A stretch of DNA of 64,000 bases. It comes from Exiguobacterium acetylicum (GTDB lineage: Bacteria; Bacillota; Bacilli; Exiguobacteriales; Exiguobacteriaceae). Position 1 is the first letter of the stretch. Each line of letters starts with the position of its first letter. Below are positions 22,569 through 43,725 of the stretch, one piece after another. Location: assembly GCF_019890935.1 (NCBI RefSeq), contig NZ_CP082333.1, positions 894,001 to 958,000 of the forward strand, read 5' to 3'. The position numbers and the translations under genes were made by a program. The notes under the pieces are model-generated. The model saw nothing but the letters and a program-made list of their open reading frames with translations. It was not told the origin of the DNA and searched no databases.

Positions 22569-22642
22569 GGCGGTGTAGCTCAGCTGGCTAGAGCGTACGG
22601 TTCATACCCGTGAGGTCGTGGGTTCGACTCCCTCCGCCGCTA
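22569..22642 (+). tRNA. tRNA-Met (CAU)
   Basis: 74 nt cloverleaf. Acceptor GGCGGTG/CGCCGCT, D-arm GCTCAGCTGGCTAGAGC, anticodon loop TTCATAC (CAU), T-loop TTCGACT. The acceptor and anticodon arms match the elongator tRNA-Met of B. subtilis. One T:T mismatch is in the T-stem (GTGGG/CCCTC). The 3' CCA is not encoded (CTATT follows the discriminator A). TTGACA at 22515-22520 could be the -35. Confidence 0.92.
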
Positions 22643-22653
22643 CTATTACTTAA

Positions 22654-22727
22654 GGACCCTTAGCTCAGCTGGTTAGAGCTGACGGCTCATAACCGTCCGG
22701 TCGCAGGTTCGAGCCCTGCAGGGTCCA
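22654..22727 (+). tRNA. tRNA-Ile2 (CAU, lysidine type)
   Basis: 74 nt cloverleaf. Acceptor GGACCCT/AGGGTCC, anticodon stem GACGG/CCGTC, loop CTCATAA. The CAU anticodon together with the CTTAGCTCAG context and the CTCATAA loop resembles tRNA-Ile2, whose C34 is changed to lysidine by TilS so that it reads AUA. CCA is not encoded. A second tRNA-Met cannot be ruled out without a covariance model. Confidence 0.85.
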
Positions 22728-41086: not shown

Positions 41087-43012
41087 ATGCAGCAAGACGC
41101 AAACATCTGGTCGCGAATGCGCCTAAAGATGGGTCAAGGCGTTCGCAGCACCTATAAAGAGCACAAGCTCTTTTGGATTGCGACCATATTGATTTGGTTA
41201 AAAACGTATTTAGCGTATACACTTTTCTTTAACGTTCCCGTAACAAACTCTGCGCAAGCATTCATTCTACTAATTAACCCAATTAGTTCAGCGCTCTTCA
41301 TGTTTGGGTTCAGCTTCTTCTTCCGGGGAAATGTTCAAAAATGGTTCATCTACGGCACATTGTTCGTCGCGACACTCATTTTATATGCGGACATCATTTT
41401 CTTCCGCTTCTTTAATGACTATCTGACGTTGCCGGTATTGTTCCAAACATCGAATGCAGAGACCGTTTCTGCATCGCTCGGTTCACTCTTGAACTGGTCC
41501 GATTTATTGATCGTCGGTGACTTGATCATCTTACCGTTCTTCCTACGGAAAATGGACATGTCAAAAAATGTGGCGTCACGTGGACGCGCAATTCTTGCAT
41601 TCGTTGCAGCAGTCGTCGTTTTCCTTGGAAACTTGACGCTCGCTGAGACAGAACGTCCAGAATTGCTCACACGTGCCTTCGACCGAGAATTGCTCGTTAA
41701 AAACATCGGAACATTTAACTTCCATATGTATGATGCACTCATTCAGTCGAAGACATCTGCGCAAAAAGCACTCGCAGACAGTTCTGAACTGTCGGAAGTT
41801 CAAAGCTTCATTGATTCAAAACATGCCGAACCGAACCCAGCTATGTTCGGAAAGTACAAGGGAAAGAACGTCATCGTCGTTTCCTTTGAGTCGGCACAAT
41901 CCTTTGCAGTTGGATTAAAAGCACCAAACGGACAAGAGATTACACCGAACCTGAATAAGTTGATCAAGGAATCGCATTCATGGGATAACTTCTATCACAA
42001 CACAGGACAAGGGAAAACGGCAGATGCTGAATTCATTCTCGAAAACTCGATCTATCCACTTGGGCGCGGTGCAGCATTCTTTACGAACGGAGAAAACGAA
42101 TTCCGGGCAACTCCTGAAATGTTGAAAGAAGACGGCTATTATTCAGCTGTTTTCCATGCAAACAACAAATCGTTCTGGAACCGAGACATCGTCTACAATA
42201 GCTTTGGCGTCGATCGTTTCTTCTCAGAGACGGATTATGACCTAGGTGATCCAGCAGATTTGACGGAGTGGGGCTTGCTCGATGATAAATTCTTTGAGCA
42301 GTCATTGCCGATGTTGAAAGATTTACCACGTCCGTTCTACTCGAAGTTCATCACATTGACGAACCACTATCCATTTGAGATGCCAAAACCAGAAGATGAA
42401 CTCGTACCACCGCTTGAGACAAGTTCTACTACGCTCAACCATTACGTCCAGGCACTAGCGTATCAAGATATGGCACTCGGTAAATTCATCGAGGGTCTGA
42501 AAAAAGATGGTACGTGGGATGACACGATCTTCATGGTCTATGGCGACCACTATGGTATCTCGACGAACCACAATGCTGCGATGGCAGAACTCATGAACAA
42601 AGATGAGTTGACGCCGTATGATGTCGCACAATTGCAACGTGTACCATTCGTGATCCATTTACCGGGTCAAACGAAAGGTGTCAAACATGAAGACGTCGCG
42701 AGTCAAATCGACATTAAACCGACATTGCTACATCTGTTAGGACAAGACTTCAAGAATGAAGTATTGTTCGGTACCGATCTTTTCTCGAAGCAGCACAAGG
42801 ATTATGCGCTGTTCCGCGATGGTTCCGTCATAACAGACAAAACGGTCTATACGCAGGAAACATGTTATGACCGCAAGACAGGTGAAGAAGTAAAAGATGG
42901 AGAGTTAGCGGAGATGTGTAAACAATCTACGAAACAATCCGAGAAGGAGTTAGGACTTTCGGATAAAGTCATCTATGGTGATTTGCTCCGTTTCCTTCAA
43001 ACTTCAAAATAA
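41087..43012 (+). CDS. ltaS: Lipoteichoic acid synthase family protein (LtaS)
   Basis: 641 residues. Five N-terminal membrane helices (to about 195), then an extracellular sulfatase-type domain. Catalytic Thr in NTGQGKTADAEF, metal ligands in FESAQS (Glu) and YGDHYG (Asp/His). Polymerises glycerol-phosphate from phosphatidylglycerol into the LTA backbone. Length fits B. subtilis LtaS/YfnI/YqgS; YqgS lies in this same chromosome region there, so yqgS is the likely orthologue. AGGAGG precedes the ATG. Confidence 0.93.
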   Translation: MQQDANIWSRMRLKMGQGVRSTYKEHKLFWIATILIWLKTYLAYTLFFNVPVTNSAQAFILLINPISSALFMFGFSFFFRGNVQKWFIYGTLFVATLILYADIIFFRFFNDYLTLPVLFQTSNAETVSASLGSLLNWSDLLIVGDLIILPFFLRKMDMSKNVASRGRAILAFVAAVVVFLGNLTLAETERPELLTRAFDRELLVKNIGTFNFHMYDALIQSKTSAQKALADSSELSEVQSFIDSKHAEPNPAMFGKYKGKNVIVVSFESAQSFAVGLKAPNGQEITPNLNKLIKESHSWDNFYHNTGQGKTADAEFILENSIYPLGRGAAFFTNGENEFRATPEMLKEDGYYSAVFHANNKSFWNRDIVYNSFGVDRFFSETDYDLGDPADLTEWGLLDDKFFEQSLPMLKDLPRPFYSKFITLTNHYPFEMPKPEDELVPPLETSSTTLNHYVQALAYQDMALGKFIEGLKKDGTWDDTIFMVYGDHYGISTNHNAAMAELMNKDELTPYDVAQLQRVPFVIHLPGQTKGVKHEDVASQIDIKPTLLHLLGQDFKNEVLFGTDLFSKQHKDYALFRDGSVITDKTVYTQETCYDRKTGEEVKDGELAEMCKQSTKQSEKELGLSDKVIYGDLLRFLQTSK

Positions 43013-43018
43013 GATGAG

Positions 43019-43057
43019 GAAAACGAATCTACTTTCGAGTGGATTCGTTTTTTTTTG
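43019..43057 (+). terminator. Terminator of ltaS
   Basis: AAAACGAATC...TTTCGA...GGATTCGTTTT stem followed by TTTTTT. Confidence 0.85.
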
Positions 43058-43073
43058 TAGAAAGGCAAATAAA

Positions 43074-43100
43074 AAGAGAGATGCGCGAGGCATCTCTCTT
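43074..43100 (-). terminator. Hairpin, terminator on minus strand
   Basis: AAGAGAGATGC / GCATCTCTCTT perfect 11-bp stem with a 5-nt loop. On the minus strand it is followed by TTTTATTT, so it can end a transcript that runs leftward through the structured element. Confidence 0.6.
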
Positions 43101-43126
43101 CAGATTTTAGACAAAAGGGCTGACAC

Positions 43127-43285
43127 CAAAAAATGACGCATCTTTTCACGCCCTTTCCTCAGGCGAGACACAAGCCAGTTTTCCTGCTTCATTTAAGCAG
43201 GAAAGCGGGTCTTGTTCGTCTCTGACAGCGCATAAATGCGCTTTTCCCTGTAGGAGTGGCGTGTGACGCGTCATTCTTTTTATTA
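43127..43285. ncRNA. Unexplained three-way-junction element (candidate ncRNA or MITE-like repeat)
   Basis: Nested pairings span about 150 nt: AATGACGC (43132) with GCGTCATT (43268); CACGCC (43147) with GGCGTG (43258); TCCTCAGG (43156) with CCTG-T-AGGA (43247); GAGACACAAG (43165) with CTTGT-TC-GTCTC (43211); apical hairpin TTTCCTGCTT/AAGCAGGAAA (43180-43204); side hairpin AGCGCAT/ATGCGCT (43227-43242). Both ends are flanked by A/T runs, so either strand could be expressed. No coding potential seen. It does not have the large central bubble of 6S RNA. Strand and function unknown. Confidence 0.55.
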
Positions 43286-43287
43286 CG

Positions 43288-43332
43288 AGATAAGGTAAGG
43301 GAGGCAGATCATCAATCTGCCTCCCTTATCTT
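43288..43332 (-). terminator. Strong hairpin downstream of yqgW
   Basis: GATAAG...GGGAGGCAGAT / ATCTGCCTCCC...TTATC, 13 or more base pairs. Most likely the 3' hairpin of the minus-strand yqgW transcript, although no T-run follows. Confidence 0.5.
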
Positions 43333-43340
43333 TGTAGATA

Positions 43341-43365
43341 CTGACTTTTGAGTCAGCCTCTTTTT
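43341..43365 (+). other. Small hairpin with T-run
   Basis: CTGACT-TTTG-AGTCAG followed by CCTCTTTTT; terminator-like on the plus strand, 12 nt before the end of yqgW. Confidence 0.4.
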
Positions 43366-43377
43366 AGCGTATCTTGA

Positions 43378-43557
43378 TTACGATGGAATACCGCCGTAAA
43401 TCAATGTCGCAATCCCGAACCAGCCGAATAAGACGACAGTCAGACCTGCGAATACGAGTGGAAACATTTGGCGTTTCTTAAGTGAACGAACGACGGCCCA
43501 AACGCCGACGAGTGCGACGAAGAAGAAAAGCCAACCGATTGGTTGATCCAAATGCAT
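43378..43557 (-). CDS. yqgW: DUF2759 small membrane protein (YqgW-like)
   Basis: 59 residues from the ATG at 43557 (GGGGGA upstream; a longer start at 43578 would swallow that site). Two membrane helices: PIGWLFFFVALVGVWAVV and FAGLTVVLFGWFGIATLIY, separated by RSLKKRQ. Size, topology and neighbourhood (divergent from yqgX) match YqgW. Function unknown. Confidence 0.82.
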   Translation of the reverse strand: MHLDQPIGWLFFFVALVGVWAVVRSLKKRQMFPLVFAGLTVVLFGWFGIATLIYGGIPS

Positions 43558-43725
43558 GACGTACTCCCCCTTAAACAATCACGTTATGAATTTCACGAAG
43601 ATTTCACTTAAATCTCACTTTTTAGTTTATCCGACTCGCGGGATAAAGTCGAGAGGGCGTTGCAGGAACTTTCGACAATTTCGTGTATAGTAGGAGAAGA
43701 GTCTATTGTAAAGGGGTTTTATAGA

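Follow-up and report, generated by a model that had tools for sequence, protein, structure and literature searches.

A probable composite of two IS1182-family MITEs in the terminator between convergent Exiguobacterium genes, and a structured module of wider occurrence in the Bacilli

The DNA with which this account is concerned is a window of 64,000 nucleotides from Exiguobacterium acetylicum (contig NZ_CP082333.1), the whole stretch that we analysed, and the feature of interest lies where two of its genes meet tail to tail. On the left is a gene named ltaS-like in a preliminary description of this DNA (41087–43012, plus strand). Convergent with it on the right is a 66-amino-acid open reading frame that the same description named yqgW-like (43378–43578, minus strand); both are taken from the list of open reading frames. 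Two open reading frames of at least 50 amino acids (53 and 50) reach into the 365-bp gap between them. Five terminator-like sites fall within 42900–43500, against 0.7 expected. A terminator-like hairpin can be read in the sequence 3′ of the ltaS-like gene, at 43021–43057 (plus strand), and it is also there in three relatives (G001, G004 and G005) that have nothing inserted at this junction. A second hairpin, at 43074–43100, is a bidirectional terminator of the host and is found without an insert in seven genomes (G001, G002, G004, G005, G012, G016 and G018). The preliminary description had placed a minus-strand terminator here, and a terminator-like site does run from 43101 to 43073.

This second hairpin is the insertion target of what we call a type II element. 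Adjoining it is the left terminus of a type II MITE (TCAGATTTTAGACAAA, 43100–43115, plus strand), and ends of the same kind are found in IS1182 insertion sequences and behind terminator hairpins at four other loci (L079, L080, L082 and L083). Inside the type II MITE, at 43117–43131 (plus strand), comparison of the genome's own copies picks out a left-end sequence of a different element, type I (GGGCTGAC...). An outer palindromic stem, AATGACGC/GCGTCATT (43132–43275, plus strand), is seen in the fold and encloses a structured module with a three-way junction (43145–43265, plus strand), which is supported by two covariance models, R1 and R2, and by covariation. Next comes a presumed recombination joint between a type II left part and a type I right part (43266–43288), placed there from a relative, G015 (E. 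indicum HHS 31), in which both elements lie side by side. The right-hand hairpin of a type I MITE (GATAAGG..CCTTATC, 43289–43330) is evident in sequence, fold and own copies. The right terminal inverted repeat of type I (ACTGACTTTTGAGTCAGCCTC, 43340–43360, plus strand) is itself a terminator-like site, resembles the right end of an IS1182 element in G007 (E. flavidum HF60; ACTTTTGAGTCACCCTC), and adjoins a T tract of the host at 43361–43365.

The predicted fold of 43113–43365 is very stable, at −119.5 kcal/mol on the plus strand (shuffles −65.6, s.d. 5.3; z −10.3) and −119.2 kcal/mol on the minus strand (z −11.5), with none of 200 shuffles matching it on either strand. The nested element at 43132–43275 is present in that fold together with its three-way junction, and the helices that the preliminary description had named in its hairpin cluster are all where it put them. 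Such stability, alongside the strong covariation described below, favours a structured ncRNA gene or a 3′ UTR regulator of ltaS or yqgW, a reading that we nevertheless hold to be very improbable. Against it, no sigma-70-like promoter was found in 42900–43500, and the feature has no match in Rfam 15 at gathering score, with nothing but sub-threshold chance hits nearby. (The sole gathering-score matches of the window are two tRNA genes at 22569–22727.) Plasmid records contain no match to 43113–43365.

The distribution of the sequence also tells against an RNA gene. Searched with 43066–43365, the own genome returned 60 matches, short and reverse-palindromic ones included, and the 40 places that we fetched and read establish 43100–43360 as an interspersed repeat. 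Four further places in the same genome (C1:1310442, 1901730, 2705460 and 2990958) have a match to type II elements in the second (E2) module region alone. Among 41 genomes, the repeat is in the own genome and in all 18 others of the Exiguobacterium-type genus, and in none of 6 from the second genus of the family or 16 from other families. When named genomes were scanned with a 21-base core, 96 stretches matched, and all 80 of the matches listed are from Exiguobacterium, a genus of the class Bacilli.

The junction itself can be compared across the genus. Orthologues of the ltaS-like gene are present in 19 of 19 genus genomes, and we read the ltaS/yqgW junction in 18 of them (all except E. flavidum). 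Only the own genome and E. indicum carry an insert. In the remaining 16 of the 17 other genomes both genes end with plain hairpins, the more distant genomes having diverged; in G001, for example, the site is AAATAAAAAGAGAGATGCACGAGGCATCTCTCTTTTTAACG with nothing inside. An RNA gene conserved at the locus should be present in close relatives, and its absence from 16 of 17, along with its presence at many unrelated places, speaks against one. Of the three readings that the preliminary description offered (an ncRNA, a 3′ UTR of yqgW or ltaS, or a MITE-like repeat), the last is therefore the right one, and the copy search that it proposed returned many copies, the mark of a mobile or repeat element, instead of one conserved copy at this locus. 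Its extent needs redrawing. The hairpins are real; the empty sites show that the one at 43074–43100 belongs to the host and predates the insert, and that the insert runs not from 43120 to 43290 but from 43100 to about 43360, just before the T tract.

We give a probability of about 0.9 to the reading of 43100 to about 43360 as two non-autonomous IS1182-family elements (MITEs) joined into a composite in the terminator between the convergent genes. The observations behind it are an empty terminator in relatives, ends like those of autonomous IS1182 elements, and many copies with no transposase gene. For type II the shared ends are seen at four loci (L154, L155, L177 and L196); for type I they are seen at L184, where they are similar with several base differences. 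Sites lacking the insert are found in relatives at the window locus and at two type I loci, L004 and L020. These, with one junction of a solo module, make up our comparisons of empty and filled sites. Partner transposases score above the curated IS1182 cut-off (NF033551) in E. flavidum, in G008 (E. antarcticum DSM 14480), in G011 (E. undae DSM 14481) and in others. In the own genome as it now stands there is no match to an IS1182 transposase, so the transposase must have acted in trans. A hairpin element of the REP/RAYT or IS200/IS605 type, moved by a Y1 transposase, shares short palindromic repeats with what we see and nothing else; the ends, the handling of the target and the partner elements all match IS1182, leaving that explanation a negligible chance.

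How might such a composite have come about? A type II MITE would have entered the ltaS/yqgW terminator, with the whole hairpin copied to both sides as in relatives, probably because each 3′ element end was joined at the 5′ foot of the extruded hairpin. The right-hand copy of the hairpin would then have been replaced by a type I MITE. Finally, recombination between identical palindromes would have deleted the middle, leaving a type II left end, a module and a type I right end. The junction in E. indicum is longer: a type II element in which the module occurs twice comes first, and after it a type I element with a module-less palindrome (AAAAGAATGACGCGTCATTCTTTT). This state fits the second stage of the history. 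Our account of the own copy as the product of recombination between two shared palindromes is drawn from the sequences of these two genomes. The new inverted repeats, lying beside the A and T tracts of the host, probably serve as replacement bidirectional terminators.

Type II elements leave a characteristic trace of their insertion. They are 356–366 bp long (four own copies), starting with [T]CAGATTGTAGACAAA and finishing with GTCTTCAGTCTC, with small variations, and autonomous insertion sequences having such ends and a transposase above the NF033551 cut-off are found in E. antarcticum and E. undae. We collected 21 type II-like elements from Exiguobacterium, a sister genus and other Bacilli, and 17 of them are flanked by a direct repeat of 18–33 bp that folds as a hairpin; all 21 were picked for recognisable ends on both sides, and the fraction is therefore not an unbiased rate. 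The four exceptions have a repeat of 8 bp only (L236), none (L238), a partial inner repeat (L082), or a matching stem with a diverged loop (L360). The target hairpin is thus duplicated by type II elements and not removed. ISfinder is said to list variable direct repeats for IS1182.

Type I elements treat the same kind of target differently. They are about 250 bp long, with ends GAGGCTGACTC..GAGTCAGCCTC. The nearest autonomous element that we found, that of E. flavidum (GAGGGTGACTC and GAGTCACCCTC), differs by several bases, and no insertion sequence turned up whose ends are identical to those of type I in the own genome. At L004 the hairpin AAGGTCTCTTCCGTATGACGGGAGAGACCTT is gone in the two filled genomes (G000 and E. 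indicum), and the 12 other genomes listed (G001, G016, G012, G018, G002 and others) have a plain hairpin. At L020 the hairpin tip AGGATGGACCGCGGTCCATCCT has been replaced in G000 and G016 and the base of the stem, AATGAC/GTCATT, is kept; here the 10 other genomes listed have a plain hairpin. Among the genomes listed, filled and empty sites thus number 2 and 12 at L004 and 2 and 10 at L020. The target hairpin is removed at both loci and no duplication is made, as in the inverted-repeat-replacing mode known from IS1272.

The genomic setting of the type I elements follows from a count of 25 among our 40 own places, the others being a recombinant (L001) and other types (L044, L046–L052 and L054–L059). 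By simple ORF calls, 17 of the 25 lie between convergent genes, 8 between co-directional genes and none between divergent genes. In a control set of 41 window gaps of at least 20 bp, 6 were convergent and 3 divergent, and the lack of divergent settings for type I is not significant alone (p 0.15). In all copies but one (24 of 25), one or more facing stop codons stand no more than 20 bases away, and 18 of the 20 copies whose right end is readable (it is unreadable in 5 of the 25) have at least four T in the next 12 bases. Their place near facing stops and convergent genes thus indicates that these elements take over terminators. At the junction of L054, G013 and G009 (E. sibiricum 255-15) carry type I-like elements in opposite orientations. 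It is possible, though on balance somewhat unlikely, that selection keeps the elements as portable bidirectional terminators of convergent pairs and that they are not simply neutral passengers, an idea compatible with a composite MITE at our locus. The proximity of facing stop codons, the T-rich right flanks and the loss of the original hairpin at L004 (it is cut down at L020) are all in its favour, but terminator targeting alone would yield the same picture.

That the two kinds of element handle hairpins in opposite ways led back to their transposases. We read 41 IS1182 loci for repeats (L243 and L255, at contig edges, and some other fetched loci were left unread), and placed one with a broken gene, L187, in the short group by its ends. 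A direct repeat of at least 18 bp with hairpin symmetry flanks 12 of 25 short-type loci (ends CAGNCTGTNGACAAA) and none of 16 long-type loci; the other 13 short-type loci lack one. A tree of 28 transposases was built from 26 of the 41 loci plus L171 and L184, leaving aside repeat copies, broken genes and near copies (L159, L167–L169, L177–L179, L186–L188, L193, L196, L235, L238 and L244). Its nine hairpin-duplicating rows all fall in one clade of 15 (support 96/97), where the other six rows show no repeat; some of these short-type loci and rows without one are nested, broken or recombined. A second clade of 12 rows (support 100/99) shows no duplication and includes the type I partner, and L171 sits on a very long branch outside both. 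All the duplicating transposases that we examined thus belong to one of two clades, and on these sequences the mode of insertion would appear to follow the transposase. The absence of a repeat is no proof of replacement by itself; replacement is seen for type I, at two loci.

The module deserves a place of its own in this account. It forms the conserved core of the feature, and RNAalifold keeps its three-way junction across an alignment (A1) that took in 30 of the 46 copies collected by that point, with at least one compensatory change in 18 of 37 pairs. In a second alignment (A2, 18 matches) the figure is 17 of 23 pairs. In A4 (63 matches, 55 distinct) 17 of 23 pairs are changed on both sides, which 2 of 500 shuffles reach, and the covariation score, from an alignment that was fitted to the structure, is 0.516 against 0.160 in shuffles (none of 500 as high; slid controls at most 0.115). 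The compensatory changes for which the preliminary description had proposed to look are accordingly real, although they belong to a mobile module and not to an RNA conserved at the locus.

Across the Bacilli the reach of the module depends on the model. R1 finds it in 21 of 299 Bacilli genomes, and R2 in 84 of the 299, in 27 of 118 genera; copies per genome are lower bounds because at most 14 candidates were scored in each. In 28 IS1182 loci of the class outside Exiguobacterium, R1 gives one weak match (L242, E 0.18) and R2 gives five (L237, L238, L242, L254 and L260), four of them in its training alignment and L238 a near copy of L237. In the 11 Exiguobacterium IS1182 loci R2 finds it in seven (L154, L155, L184, L186, L187, L188 and L193, four of them in training) and finds none in L156, L158, L190 and L191. 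L252 and L257 have a different long, structured-looking stretch left of the transposase, with no R2 match at E 1. Wherever an insertion sequence has the module (12 loci, 8 of them in training), it sits after the left end and before the transposase; L238 has two further copies elsewhere in the locus, and in G187 modules stand directly upstream of all five transposases listed.

The module is carried by IS1182 elements of both transposase clades and it also occurs alone, often inside inverted repeats of the host. Could it be an independent mobile hairpin with hairpins as its insertion sites, those of IS1182 elements among them, and not a native part of the element? We consider this unlikely, if less so than an RNA gene. 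Pointing that way are the solo copies inside split host inverted repeats (L054, L059, L218 and L221), the sharing between clades, the module-less palindrome of E. indicum, and the module's many copies in genomes where a search at E 1e-60 gives no IS1182 match (G019, G284, G297 and G032). Its constant place in the 12 insertion-sequence loci argues the other way; moreover, some copies in the transposase-less genomes belong to MITEs that have IS1182 ends (L361 and L217), the module-less form may be a deletion, and the one solo copy examined, L054, gave no empty site: the nearest genomes share the copy, and at that junction further species show different insertions, bare terminators or different neighbours.

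Modules also come in pairs. Three MITEs of the sister genus (L361, L217 and L360; 578–588 bp) carry one module at either end, the two being inverted and pointing inward, with what look by eye like remnants of a transposase gene start between the two. Inverted pairs of solo modules about 75–125 bp apart occur in L055 (501–841), L358, L362 and L372, with a terminator hairpin between them in L055 and L362. Tandem modules in the same orientation are found in L378 (1501–1833) and L436 (992–1395), at start-to-start distances of 213 and 276 bp.

Whether the module acts as RNA or as DNA can be approached through its rarer pair types. On the transposase-sense strand, and setting one constant pair aside, G-U and A-C pairs number 45 and 80 in alignment A3 and 32 and 34 in A4, in cells that are not independent. 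The constant pair is almost always U-G (99 of 100 rows in A3, 50 of 55 in A4), which is permissible for RNA and counts towards an RNA gene; the lack of any excess of G-U over A-C elsewhere counts against it. Set against each other, the two lean weakly towards a DNA structure or the opposite strand. The chances seem to us evenly balanced that the module serves its element as a DNA cruciform or insulator. A broader proposal, which we offer tentatively and rate appreciably lower, is that the module is a widespread mobile cruciform-forming DNA of Bacilli, carried by both IS1182 clades and spreading solo inside terminator hairpins, where it would mark or insulate the ends of terminator-dwelling elements; with it, one transposase family may have evolved two opposite uses, copying and replacing, of the same structural target.

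Some of this was known before. MITEs, IS1182 and the targeting of hairpins by IS1182 members are all published. IS1272 and TnSha1, of the IS1182 family, are described as targeting stem-loops and terminators by inverted-repeat-replacing transposition (PMC5678879, PMC4923244, in the portions available to us). Type I elements replace a stem-loop in the same way; unlike IS1272 and TnSha1, the elements here are non-autonomous and carry a module, and the other clade duplicates the whole hairpin. Whole-hairpin duplication is drawn in PMC5678879 as a possible pathway (b, in the legend of its Fig 13), without examples in the available text. A survey that found IS1182 among the families over-represented between convergent genes (PMC9208149) agrees with the convergent setting seen here, but its accessible part describes no MITEs of this kind, no hairpin duplication and no module. 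The ISMac2 MITEs of Methanosarcina acetivorans (160 and 169 bp) are likewise short non-autonomous IS1182 derivatives in several copies (PMC3852290); the last columns of their table, 26/4 and 25/0, we take to be inverted and direct repeat sizes, and the part of that paper at hand contains no hairpin duplication or structured module. Compared by description alone, bcr1 of the Bacillus cereus group and Bhal-1 of B. halodurans are also interspersed structured repeats of Bacilli, and Bhal-1 (74 bp) might, on the excerpted description, be the same module (PMC2267715). An open-access search for Exiguobacterium repeats, MITEs and IS1182 found nothing that looked related. Within the open-access literature searched, some of it available in part, whole-hairpin duplication as an observed rule, its split between clades and the module seem new.

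What does it all mean for these bacteria and their mobile DNA? The type II elements are natural cases of insertion in which the terminator hairpin has been duplicated in its entirety, the outcome drawn as a possible pathway in the available part of the IS1272 study (PMC5678879), and they connect this outcome with a single one of the two transposase clades. The link between clade and mode makes structure-guided transposition testable by transposase swaps. An abundant, strongly covarying repeat of the Bacilli, which might easily be taken for a conserved RNA, is explained as well. For Exiguobacterium itself, the elements suggest that many genes may end in terminators brought to them by jumping DNA.
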